Shown here: positions 30,657 through 34,364 of the stretch, piece after piece
Numbering within the stretch: position 1 is the stretch's first letter
Layout of the letters: each line of letters starts with the position of its first letter
Source: Limimaricola cinnabarinus
Lineage (GTDB): Bacteria; Pseudomonadota; Alphaproteobacteria; Rhodobacterales; Rhodobacteraceae
Reading direction: 5' to 3'
DNA: 64,000 nt
Assembly: GCF_002723615.1 (NCBI RefSeq)
Contig: NZ_KZ304951.1
Coordinates: 331,344-395,343, forward strand
Made by a program: the position numbers and the translations under genes
Notes under the pieces: model-generated
What the model was told of the DNA's origin: nothing
Seen by the model: only the letters and a program-made list of their open reading frames with translations
Database searches by the model: none

Positions 30657-31958
30657 ATGATCCCCCGCTATTCCCGCCCCGAGATGACCGCCATCTGGGA
30701 GCCCGCCACCAAGTTCCGCATCTGGTACGAGATCGAGGCCCATGCGGGCGACGCGATGGCCGATCTGGGCGTCATCCCGCGCGAGAACGCCGATGCCGTG
30801 TGGAAGGCGAAGGATGTCGAGTTCGACGTCGCGCGCATCGACGAGATCGAGGCCGTCACCAAGCATGACGTCATCGCCTTCCTCACCCATCTGGCCGAGC
30901 ATGTCGGTTCGGACCAGGCGCGTTTCGTGCATCAGGGCATGACCTCCTCTGACGTGCTCGACACCACCTTCAACGTGCAGCTCACCCGCGCCGCCGATCT
31001 GCTGATCGCCGACATGGAGCGGGTTCTCGCCGCCCTGAAGGCACGCGCGATCGAGCACAAGGACACGGTGCGGATCGGTCGCAGCCACGGCATTCATGCC
31101 GAGCCGACCACCATGGGGCTGACCTTCGCGCGCTTCTACGCCGAGATGGATCGCGGCCTCGCCCGCCTGCGCAACGCGCGCGAAGAGATCGCCACGGGCG
31201 CGATCTCGGGCGCGGTCGGCACCTTCGCCAATGTCGATCCCCGCGTGGAAGAGCATGTCTGCGCCAGGATGGGGCTCAGCCCCGAGCCGATCTCGACCCA
31301 GGTGATCCCGCGCGACCGGCATGCGATGTTCTTCGCCACGCTGGGCGTGATCGCCTCCTCGATGGAGAACATCGCCACCGAGATCCGCCACATGCAGCGC
31401 ACCGAGGTGCTGGAGGCCGAAGAATTCTTCTCCAAGGGGCAGAAGGGCTCCTCGGCGATGCCGCACAAGCGCAACCCGGTGCTGACCGAGAACCTCACCG
31501 GCCTCGCGCGTCTGGTGCGCATGTCGGTGGTCCCGGCGATGGAGAACGTCACGCTCTGGCACGAGCGCGACATCTCGCATTCCTCGGTCGAGCGGGCGAT
31601 CGGCCCCGACACCACGGTGACGCTCGACTTCGCGCTCAACCGGCTCGCCGGCGTGATCGAGAAGCTGGTGATCTACCCGCAGCACATGCTCGACAACATG
31701 AACAAGTTCCGCGGGCTGGTGATGAGCCAGCGCGTGCTGCTGGCGCTGACGCAGGCCGGCGTGAGCCGCGAGGACGCCTACCGCCTCGTGCAGCGCAACG
31801 CGATGCGGGTCTGGGAGCAGGGCGCGGATTTCAAGACCGAGCTTCTGGCCGACGAGGAAGTGACGGCGGCGCTCAGCCCCGAAGAGATCGAGGAGAAGTT
31901 CGATCTGGGCTACCACACCAAGCATGTCGAGACGATCTTCGCGCGCGTCTTCGGCTGA
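30657..31958 (+). CDS. purB: Adenylosuccinate lyase
   Basis: Catalyses two beta-eliminations in purine synthesis: SAICAR to AICAR, and adenylosuccinate to AMP. The 433-residue fumarase/aspartase-fold enzyme has the HQGMTSSDVLDTTF motif, the catalytic His region RIGRSHGIHAEPT and the signature loop KGSSAMPHKRNP. ATG 30657 gives the typical MIPRYSRPEM start. It stands alone, flanked by the unknown gene and a hairpin. Confidence 0.97.
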   Translation: MIPRYSRPEMTAIWEPATKFRIWYEIEAHAGDAMADLGVIPRENADAVWKAKDVEFDVARIDEIEAVTKHDVIAFLTHLAEHVGSDQARFVHQGMTSSDVLDTTFNVQLTRAADLLIADMERVLAALKARAIEHKDTVRIGRSHGIHAEPTTMGLTFARFYAEMDRGLARLRNAREEIATGAISGAVGTFANVDPRVEEHVCARMGLSPEPISTQVIPRDRHAMFFATLGVIASSMENIATEIRHMQRTEVLEAEEFFSKGQKGSSAMPHKRNPVLTENLTGLARLVRMSVVPAMENVTLWHERDISHSSVERAIGPDTTVTLDFALNRLAGVIEKLVIYPQHMLDNMNKFRGLVMSQRVLLALTQAGVSREDAYRLVQRNAMRVWEQGADFKTELLADEEVTAALSPEEIEEKFDLGYHTKHVETIFARVFG

Positions 31959-31967
31959 GCCGACCGC

Positions 31968-31988
31968 GGCGGGCCTTCGGGCCCGCCC
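31968..31988 (+). terminator. Hairpin after purB
   Basis: GGCGGGCC-TTC-GGGCCCGCC followed by C-rich then TTCT sequence. The T-run is weak. It lies between the convergent purB and luxR-type genes. Confidence 0.45.
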
Positions 31989-31997
31989 CCCCTTCTC

Positions 31998-32594
31998 TCA
32001 GATGAGCCCGAACCCTGCCGCCAGCGTCGCCGCCTGCGTCGCGGTATTGGCGCCGAGCTTGGTGCGGGCGTTCTTCAGCCGCTGCTTGATCGCGCCCTCG
32101 GTCACGCCCAGCGCATGGGCGATCTGCTTGAGCCTGTAGCCGTTCTTGACCATCCGCAGCACCTCGATCTCGGCTTGCGTCAGGTTGCTCGGCGGCGCGG
32201 CGGCGGCGTGCAGCCGGCCGATCATCTGCTCGAGCGTGACCAGCTCGCGGTCGCTGAATTCGCGGTCCTCGCGGACATATACCCCGTAGGAGCGCGCCCC
32301 GTCCGCATCCGCGACCGACGTCACCGCGCCATGGCGCAGGCCCATCCGGCGCGCCCGGACGAAGAGGCCGAAGGGGTCCTCGATCGCGCTCCAGCGCGCC
32401 GCGCCCTCGTTCGAATAGGCCCAGCGGATCGCCGGATCATCGAGGATAAGTCGCTCTGTAGTATAAATTTTGACCCATGATGCAGGCAAGAGGTTGTATT
32501 CCTCGAGCGGGGATGCAAATCCCACTCGCAGTGCGATGTAGTACCCGACCGGGGCGAGCCGGTTCAGCAGTTCGGTCTCGTCATCGATCGTCAC
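31998..32594 (-). CDS. LuxR-family autoinducer-binding transcriptional regulator (solo)
   Basis: A 198-residue regulator with an N-terminal acyl-homoserine-lactone-binding domain and C-terminal LuxR helix-turn-helix. The five pocket residues invariant in LuxR/TraR are all present with exact spacing: Trp40, Tyr44, Asp53, Pro54 and Trp68 (LuxR W57/Y61/D70/P71/W85). The HTH is LTQAEIEVLRMVKNG...GVTEGAIKQRLKNARTKL, somewhat atypical in the recognition helix. No LuxI synthase lies in the window. The start is taken as GTG 32594 because upstream ATGs run into the divergent gene; no strong ribosome-binding site is seen. Local G+C falls to about 45% near 32460-32520. Confidence 0.85.
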   Translation of the reverse strand: MTIDDETELLNRLAPVGYYIALRVGFASPLEEYNLLPASWVKIYTTERLILDDPAIRWAYSNEGAARWSAIEDPFGLFVRARRMGLRHGAVTSVADADGARSYGVYVREDREFSDRELVTLEQMIGRLHAAAAPPSNLTQAEIEVLRMVKNGYRLKQIAHALGVTEGAIKQRLKNARTKLGANTATQAATLAAGFGLI

Positions 32595-32715
32595 GTGCTG
32601 GATCCGGATCGGAGGGGTTGGATATGCGAAGAGATGATCATTGCGCCAACGCTGATTTCCGCCCCCTCGTGACGCTGTGCTCGTGGAGGCCGCGAACACC
32701 GAGGTGACCCCCGAG

Positions 32716-33207
32716 ATGACCCCGCCCAATGCAGACAGTATCGGCGATAGCCTGTCGCATCTCAAGCAGATTGCGCCCGGCGGCTTCGCCATCGGTCTGC
32801 ATGTCCGCTTCGCGGCCCCCAAGCTGATGTTCAACTGCTACCCGGCCGAGTGGATCACCAGCTATGCCAGGCAGGGCCTGTTGATGAGCGATCCGACCGT
32901 GCGCTGGGCGATGTCCAGCGAGGGCGTCCTGCGCTGGAGCGATGTCGATCCCGGCGACGATCCGCGCCGCGTCATGCCGCAGGCCGCCGAATACGGCCTG
33001 CGATACGGCGTCACGCTCTCGATGGCATCGGGGGCGCGCAGCTTCGGCGGGCTGGCCCATACCGAGCGGCCCTTCGAGGATGCGGAGATCGAGACGATGC
33101 GCGCCGAGCTGGCGCGATTGCACGCGCTGACCCGCGACATCGACGAGCTGGACCCGGCCACGCGCGCGCGGCTCGCCAAGCTGTCGATCGCCGTCGTCAC
33201 CCTCTGA
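32716..33207 (+). CDS. Autoinducer-binding-domain protein without a DNA-binding domain
   Basis: A 163-residue protein homologous to the N-terminal domain of the divergent LuxR regulator. It also keeps the full ligand pocket with exact spacing (Trp46, Tyr50, Asp59, Pro60, Trp74), but ends about 20 residues after the domain (ATRARLAKLSIAVVTL) with no helix-turn-helix. Only 71 bp separate its stop from the next gene, so no HTH is hidden downstream by frameshift. ATG 32716 is preferred; GTG starts at 32677, 32683 or 32704 are possible. It could bind the same signal and sequester it, or form inactive heterodimers with the regulator; both are inference. Confidence 0.8.
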   Translation: MTPPNADSIGDSLSHLKQIAPGGFAIGLHVRFAAPKLMFNCYPAEWITSYARQGLLMSDPTVRWAMSSEGVLRWSDVDPGDDPRRVMPQAAEYGLRYGVTLSMASGARSFGGLAHTERPFEDAEIETMRAELARLHALTRDIDELDPATRARLAKLSIAVVTL

Positions 33208-33278
33208 GCGGGGCGCATCATCGCGCTCTTGCGAACAGCTTGTTTACCTTGATCCCCTAATCCTCGGACTGAGAGAGC

Positions 33279-34364
33279 ATGCCGAGGAGCGCGGGATCCG
33301 TGTCAGCACCACAATCCATCGACCATGCCGCCGGTAAGCCCGTCGGCGCAGACCATGTGAGCCCGCGCCGCAAGGCGGCCATGGTGGTGCAGCTGATGAT
33401 CGCCGAAGGGCGCAAGCTCGACCTCGCCTCCCTGCCGGAGGCGGTGCAGATCAGCCTGACGCGCGAGTTGGGCGCGCTTCGGCTGGTGGACCGCGCCACG
33501 CTGGCCGCAGTGGCCGCGGAATGCGCCGACCGGATCGAGGGGCTGGGCCTTGCCGCGCCGGGCGGCATGGACCAGGCGCTGCAGGCGCTCGACGGGCGGA
33601 TCAGCCCGGCCACGGCGGCGCGGCTGCGCGCCGAGGCCGGCCCGCCGCGCGGCGATGACCCCTGGGCCCGGCTGACCGCGCTGCCCTGCCCCGCGCTGGT
33701 GCCGCTGATGACCACCGAATGCGCCGAGATCGCGGCCGTGACCCTGTCGAAGCTGCCGGTGGCCAAGGCGGCGGAGCTTCTGGGGCTGTTGTCGGGGGAA
33801 CGGGCGCGCCGGATCACCCATGCGATGTCGCAGACCCGCGCCATCGCGCCCGACGCGGTGGAGCGGATCGGCGCGGCGCTCGCGGCGGAGCATTGCCAGG
33901 AGGTGCCCAAGGCCTTCGCCCACCCGGCCCCCGACCGGCTCGGCGAGATCCTCAATTCCAGCGGCAGCGCCACGCGCGACGCGGTGCTCGACGGGCTCGA
34001 GGCCGAAGACCCCGATTTCGCCGCCGATGTGCGCCGCGCGATCTTCACCTTCGCCGACATCCCGCAGCGCCTTGCCCCGGGCGATGCGCCTGCCGTGCTG
34101 CGCCGGATCGAACAGCCGGTGCTGATCACCGCGCTCGCGGCGGCGCAGGCCACGGGCGGCGGCGATGCCGCGGCGGCGAACCATCTGCTCGACAACATCT
34201 CGCAGCGCATGGCGCAGGGCCTGCGCGAGGAGATCGCCGAGCGGGGCGCGGTGCGCCGGGTGGAGGGCGAAACCGCCATGAGCGAGGTGGTCGGCGCGAT
34301 CCGCGCCGCCGCCGATGAGGGCGACATCGCCCTCGTCTCGCCGCAGGAGGAGGATGAGAGCTAG
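33279..34364 (+). CDS. FliG-like flagellar motor switch protein, orphan
   Basis: A 361-residue protein with all three FliG regions: N-domain (RKAAMVVQLMIAEG on), middle domain (about residues 125-210, with AAELLGLLSGERARRI) and C-domain. The charged residues that face the stator in E. coli FliG (R281, D288, D289, R297) appear here with identical spacing as Arg310, Glu317, Glu318, Arg326. The EHPQ motif of the middle domain is changed to ECAE. No other flagellar gene lies within 30 kb on either side. It follows the autoinducer-binding gene by 71 bp on the same strand. Start ATG 33279; GTG 33300 is possible. Confidence 0.85.
   Translation: MPRSAGSVSAPQSIDHAAGKPVGADHVSPRRKAAMVVQLMIAEGRKLDLASLPEAVQISLTRELGALRLVDRATLAAVAAECADRIEGLGLAAPGGMDQALQALDGRISPATAARLRAEAGPPRGDDPWARLTALPCPALVPLMTTECAEIAAVTLSKLPVAKAAELLGLLSGERARRITHAMSQTRAIAPDAVERIGAALAAEHCQEVPKAFAHPAPDRLGEILNSSGSATRDAVLDGLEAEDPDFAADVRRAIFTFADIPQRLAPGDAPAVLRRIEQPVLITALAAAQATGGGDAAAANHLLDNISQRMAQGLREEIAERGAVRRVEGETAMSEVVGAIRAAADEGDIALVSPQEEDES

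Follow-up and report, generated by a model that had tools for sequence, protein, structure and literature searches.

A full-length LuxR gene and a gene for a shorter LuxR-like protein lie back to back near the middle of the window, by which we mean the whole stretch of 64,000 nucleotides that was analysed. The shorter protein carries the domain that binds acyl-homoserine lactones (AHL) alone, and we refer to it as the half-LuxR, or simply the half. The features of the locus are as follows.

30657..31958, plus strand: purB (adenylosuccinate lyase), one flank of the topology D locus discussed below; from the ORF list and synteny, with the start picked by eye within an ORF from 30597

31959..31997, no strand: gap of 39 bp between purB and luxR, the site of luxI in related genera, luxI being absent here; from synteny

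31998..32594, minus strand: full-length LuxR (CerM-type), 198 aa, GTG start; from the ORF list and Pfam

32019..32186, minus strand: GerE helix-turn-helix (HTH) domain of the LuxR (P0002 residues 138-193); from Pfam

32235..32489, minus strand: Autoind_bind domain of the LuxR (P0002 residues 37-121); from Pfam

32595..32715, no strand: intergenic region of 121 bp between the two divergent starts, shared by luxR and the half

32716..33207, plus strand: half-LuxR (CerN-type), AHL-binding domain alone, 163 aa, ATG start; from the ORF list, Pfam and relatives

32821..33135, plus strand: Autoind_bind domain of the half-LuxR (residues 36-140) with an intact WYDPWG pocket; from Pfam and alignment

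33154..33201, plus strand: C-terminal tail of the half-LuxR, with a predicted helix (147-155) and then a short predicted strand (159-162); from hhalign and AlphaFold2

33279..34364, plus strand: FliG-like gene 3' of the half-LuxR, the other topology D flank; from Pfam (FliG_N, FliG_M, FliG_C) and synteny

The preliminary description of this DNA had proposed a divergent pair of a LuxR and a half-LuxR without an HTH, and in a Pfam scan both open reading frames indeed have the domain content that it claimed. Autoind_bind is the sole match of the half (P0001; 65.6 bits, cut-off 23), while the LuxR (P0002) matches Autoind_bind at 42.1 bits and GerE at 38.9 bits. Two relatives of the LuxR have ATG at the position of its GTG start. 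Over 132 aa the binding domains of the two proteins are 39% identical. The identical pocket spacing that had been claimed for them is present as well (W-x3-Y-x8-D-P-x13-W in both), and by alignment the conserved set comprises six residues, G113 included: W57, Y61, D70, P71, W85 and G113 in TraR numbering are all kept in both proteins.

From the stop of the half to the next ATG there are 71 bp (33208-33278). The FliG-like gene that follows is a second, divergent FliG, with 80 bits for FliG_C as against 105 bits for the other copy on contig C6; among 20 loci of other genera, 10 have it beside the pair, and in L. cinnabarinus the space from the half to the lpxL-like gene contains no FliG-like copy. 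The names glnA, purB, lpxL-like and acnA are what we take these genes to be from our own reading of their sequences. Those of purB and fliG are consistent with a published description of roseobacter loci (PMC3824088). The 121-bp intergenic region diverges fast beyond L. litoreus and footprinting gave nothing; compared with the published CerM site, its best match has three mismatches, for a motif that derives from few sites and may not fit the HTH of P0002. That HTH (32019-32186) is almost invariant among the Limimaricola copies at the window locus, the whole LuxR being 65-91% identical to that of the window.

The distribution of the short gene bears on whether it arose by local truncation or by a sequencing error. 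Half-LuxRs were searched with the window half as query and then with a profile, in eight Limimaricola genomes (that of the window and those of litoreus, cinnabarinus, variabilis, pyoseonensis, hongkongensis, soesokkakensis and sp. G21655-S1) and in 199 genomes drawn from the family Rhodobacteraceae. At least 46 distinct half-LuxRs were found. The eight Limimaricola genomes, each with at least one, account for 12 of them, and 33 further members of the family for the other 34; a recognisable half is present in at least 35 of the 199 family genomes, with the window genome and L. pyoseonensis counted in. The figure of 46 is a lower bound because only short-looking or paired frames among the matches listed were classified, and most frames near 205 aa were counted, unseen, as full LuxRs. 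Every one of the 46 adjoins a full LuxR, so the co-occurrence across the family that the preliminary description had suggested looking for is there; 44 pairs are divergent and two tandem (L070 and L073). In these two loci (genomes G168 and G094) luxR, luxI and the half are all on one strand, and the half has W at pocket position G113. Among 387 genomes drawn from the class, the only two matches at E <= 1e-20 were the window's own genome and one of the same family, that is, none outside the family. P0001 also has matches on plasmids, the four best of which bear the annotation 'autoinducer binding domain-containing protein' and are thus candidate halves. They come from L. variabilis, Loktanella, Qingshengfaniella and Yoonia, the Qingshengfaniella match coinciding with L073 in length and place. 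A second type of half/LuxR pair sits on plasmid pLokhon01 (L098).

A Pfam scan of 26 relatives of the half gave Autoind_bind in all and nothing else, and a search for an HTH remnant downstream of the 46 halves (three forward frames, 360 nt) gave none, the best E being 0.54; in the control for that search, 71 of 71 full LuxRs scored E <= 1.6e-9. The preliminary description had itself named homologues that routinely carry a C-terminal HTH as evidence against it, and had argued that the 71 bp after the half leave no room for a lost HTH; with no HTH in 26 relatives and no remnant after 46 halves, the window gene included, both points fall in its favour. A local truncation or sequencing error was rejected on the same counts. 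In addition, the 46 half-LuxRs each stand beside a LuxR of one clade, and for this reason too we do not regard the window half as a local truncation.

That clade comes from our first binding-domain tree (117 rows), where the neighbouring full LuxRs group together with SH-aLRT 100. It has 47 rows: 42 labelled partners, four assigned by position and the LuxR of L. hongkongensis, whose own half has decayed. With all 117 rows, three changes are needed for the state 'half', and five LuxRs of other types are placed among the Limimaricola halves. In a second tree of 106 rows, for which 11 of the 117 were dropped (two CerR-type, the five other-type LuxRs and four near-copies, a choice that favours a clean result), the halves form one side of a branch (44 rows) with support 88/95, which is present in 85% of 200 bootstrap trees. 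The distances among halves and among their partners correlate (r 0.61 over 46 pairs and 0.65 over the 34 outside Limimaricola, reached in none of 2000 permutations each); this fits co-inheritance of the two genes, and as plain vertical descent gives such a correlation too, it is not proof of contact between the proteins.

The C-terminal end of the half deserves separate mention. A gapless profile alignment places it on the partner's linker and HTH helix 1 (hhalign; the global mode used makes the ends match up by force, and confidence drops at the last residues). For the half, the best AlphaFold2 model predicts a helix (147-155) followed by a short strand (159-162), and HTH helix 1 lies at 140-150 in the LuxR model. 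One of the five models of the half is good (pLDDT 92.6) and four are poorer (75-79); Foldseek matches of the half model to LuxR proteins are modest, with TMq 0.49-0.66 among the 50 listed. Many half-LuxRs have a recognisable tail, and some (L076, L077) have none. The alignment suggests that the tail may derive from helix 1 of an HTH that was otherwise lost, put to a new use.

The preliminary description had noticed no LuxI in the window, and this holds for the whole genome (3.8 Mb, 99.99% complete): it has four Autoind_bind genes, and a whole-genome profile search found no LuxI above the Autoind_synth cut-off. A single weak LuxI-like match of 19.9 bits (L005, G000:C1:255422-255733) adjoins a plsC-like gene and is presumably an OlsB-like acyltransferase; on these grounds we rejected the existence of a LuxI elsewhere in the genome. 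The LuxR of the window, with an AHL-binding domain and an HTH in a genome without LuxI, thus is a LuxR solo, as had been suggested. It resembles other solos in both respects and differs from them in keeping an adjacent, dedicated partner with an AHL domain. The window genome also has a GtaR-type LuxR without LuxI (L003, G000:C13:54364-54663), the copy of which in L. pyoseonensis (L030, G004:C7) has LuxI beside it. This is the only LuxI in the seven other Limimaricola genomes (33.9 bits), and the LuxR that it adjoins is this different, GtaR-like one and not a half. The GtaR-type locus of the window genome may be another luxRI locus from which the synthase has disappeared.

Outside Limimaricola the situation is different. 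Halves have luxI within 2 kb in 32 of 34 cases (30 with the half on the opposite strand, two in tandem), and none of the 12 Limimaricola halves adjoins one. In 10-kb stretches around 20 of the 34 halves, 10 loci have the order purB, luxI, luxR, half, fliG with luxR and the half divergent; Pseudoroseicyclus aestuarii has this order too, with lpxL-like and acnA genes beyond. In all eight Limimaricola genomes the end of LuxR directly adjoins purB and the gap has no luxI, so luxI is absent from a locus that carries it in other genera. The flanks are those of topology D, which Cude and Buchan (2013, PMC3824088) described for six roseobacters as fliG, luxRI and purB, their appendix giving two luxR genes per locus. 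The window locus likewise has fliG on one side, purB on the other and two luxR genes between them; the difference is that topology D has luxI, which Limimaricola lacks. The portions of PMC3824088 available to us contain no remark on a D-locus luxR without an HTH (the words 'truncated' and 'HTH' have no matches there), and we infer that the second luxR of the six strains is a half-LuxR. The simplest reading of this gene distribution is that the Limimaricola locus would be a D locus with the synthase lost, and the window LuxR a secondary solo left when luxI disappeared from an older locus with luxI, luxR and the half. A gain of luxI elsewhere at the very same spot, instead of a loss in Limimaricola, is not the simplest reading.

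What such a pair may do is best judged from the one member with a known mechanism, CerM/CerN of Cereibacter sphaeroides, as reported in the parts of a 2024 study available to us (PMC11655674). CerM binds DNA without AHL. The interaction of CerN with CerM occurs in the presence of AHL, and CerN with AHL weakens the binding of CerM to DNA, as AHL alone does in vitro to a lesser extent. Mutants in cerN or cerI swim again once cerM is lost as well. In our collection, locus L069/L085 (genome G053) was matched to the published cer locus by gene order, by F at W57 of CerM and by Pfam bits (65.5, 45.3+39.4, 128.7 and 282.7 for LuxI, compared with 66.1, 47.5+42.9, 128.1 and 281.5 in PMC11655674). There cerN and cerM are divergent like the window pair, with which they share ancestry and layout: an HTH-less LuxR with a WYDPWG pocket is divergent from a full LuxR, CerM and the window LuxR fall in one clade, and the identity of half and partner is 31% as published (PMC11655674) and 39% over the binding domain here. 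There are differences as well. The cer pair lies beside cerR and cerI and responds to the bacterium's own AHL, whereas the window genome has no luxI; the window pair occupies another locus, between purB and fliG; and W57, which is F in CerM, is intact in the full LuxR of the window. Since W57 is kept in P0002 and lost in CerM, P0002 may bind AHL itself.

We think it probable that the window pair is a two-receptor switch of the CerM/CerN type, left behind after loss of the AHL synthase gene and now serving AHL-gated eavesdropping. The full LuxR would bind DNA when signal is absent; the half would take up AHL in its own pocket and, once loaded, pair with the LuxR through the dimer face of the binding domains; the heterodimer, having one HTH, would leave DNA, and transcription would respond to the presence of AHL. 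Since the genome has no LuxI, neighbours would have to supply this AHL. For the window pair, heterodimerisation, AHL dependence, release from DNA and the regulated targets are what we infer by analogy with the cer system. Because CerN with AHL takes apo-CerM off DNA, the half is likely to be an AHL-gated antagonist, one that switches off a LuxR active in the absence of AHL. The preliminary description had spoken of a built-in brake or a signal sink; the antagonist part would, by analogy, remain the best reading, and the sink does not agree with the CerN model of an AHL-gated off-switch.

The preliminary description had taken TrlR of Agrobacterium as its parallel. TrlR is a truncated LuxR that antagonises full TraR and is 88% identical to it (as reported in PMC11655674). 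The parallel stands as far as a truncated antagonist is concerned, the antagonism of the window pair being presumed from analogy; CerN, of the same family and in the same divergent layout, is the closer one. A mechanism of the TrlR kind, where an AHL-loaded LuxR that requires AHL to bind DNA is trapped in inactive heterodimers by the AHL-loaded half, so that the half acts as a brake raising the signal threshold, seems to us unlikely, although it is not without arguments. P0002 has all six pocket residues, including W57, and may itself depend on AHL; the classical precedent is TrlR; and between the window genes the best match to the published CerM motif has three mismatches. Against these, the sole tested member of the family behaves in the opposite way, in that CerM binds DNA without AHL where TraR needs AHL to bind it, and the half, at 39% identity to its partner over the binding domain, is an old, separate protein of its own lineage and not a recent near-identical copy of its target as TrlR is.

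Given the missing LuxI, the module might also sense a ligand other than AHL by now, for instance an algal compound. The absence of LuxI above the cut-off in the window genome and beside the 12 Limimaricola pairs would agree with this, and so would the state of the pocket in the genus, since 6 of 24 Limimaricola rows (12 halves and 12 partners) are without one pocket residue: P71T in the half of L. pyoseonensis, P71S in the LuxR of L. cinnabarinus, W57F in two halves and W85L in two LuxRs. The preliminary description had named loss of pocket residues in close relatives as evidence against itself, and in this minority it does occur. Nevertheless both window proteins keep all six residues that contact AHL, and the locus carries luxI in other genera; in our opinion a change of ligand is improbable. 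The pocket is kept in most members: of the 46 halves 41 have all six residues, as do 39 of the 46 partners and all 23 other LuxRs (two CerR-type rows left out, and the L. hongkongensis LuxR counted among the 23). That the half merely titrates or protects AHL, as a sink or store with no contact to the LuxR, we hold to be highly improbable: the complete pocket of those 41 halves and the predicted folding of the half on its own (in the best of five AlphaFold2 models) speak for it, and the position of all 46 halves beside a LuxR of one clade, 44 of them divergent, together with the AHL dependence of the CerN-CerM interaction (PMC11655674), speaks against it.

The preliminary description had further suggested a test for purifying selection on the pocket. 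For the genes as a whole, selection among the window genome, L. litoreus and L. cinnabarinus is purifying (Nei-Gojobori omega 0.26-0.28 for the half, 0.16-0.22 for LuxR and 0.06-0.08 for purB). With L. variabilis or L. pyoseonensis as one of the two genomes compared (seven comparisons), the agreement is less good, the half having an omega of 0.43-0.84 at dS 0.67-1.13, which reflects either weaker constraint or an estimate that is unreliable at that distance.

CerN, a single published case, seems to stand for a family-wide arrangement, which outside Limimaricola is nearly always beside luxI (32 of 34 halves). If its mechanism is general, the picture of roseobacter loci with one receptor is incomplete, and work on luxR only would mislead. 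As a tentative proposal, to which we give somewhat less than even chances, half-LuxR antagonists would be a standard, overlooked third part of one whole class of quorum-sensing loci in Rhodobacteraceae, with the half divergent from luxR and luxI, one receptor binding DNA and the other deciding its release. Limimaricola would have lost the synthase, kept the switch and multiplied it on other replicons for eavesdropping; the tail, as a reused HTH helix 1, might help to hold the partner off DNA. The mechanism is already known for one member, CerM/CerN (PMC11655674). What seems to be new is a topology D locus that has no luxI. The spread of half-LuxRs through the family, their association with luxRI loci and the disappearance of luxI from Limimaricola were not found stated in the open-access literature, most subscription papers lying outside that search.

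Limimaricola provides natural variants for such questions: pairs without luxI, and a locus with a decayed half where LuxR is retained. In three of the eight genomes (L. hongkongensis, L. soesokkakensis and sp. G21655-S1) the half is gone and LuxR still stands between purB and fliG; short stretches at these sites resemble the start of the half weakly (E 0.028, 0.049 and 0.51). As the half has decayed there while LuxR stays, the half is not essential to LuxR in these three genomes, which tells against the switch proposed above. Each of them carries one to three further half/LuxR pairs elsewhere, one of these pairs on plasmid pLokhon01. Where the half at the window site is intact (five genomes), a further pair is present in one, L. 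pyoseonensis. The numbers are small, and a half from another locus may stand in for the decayed one. L. soesokkakensis has, besides, two full-length LuxR genes of another type in tandem (L023/L032, G005:C30).
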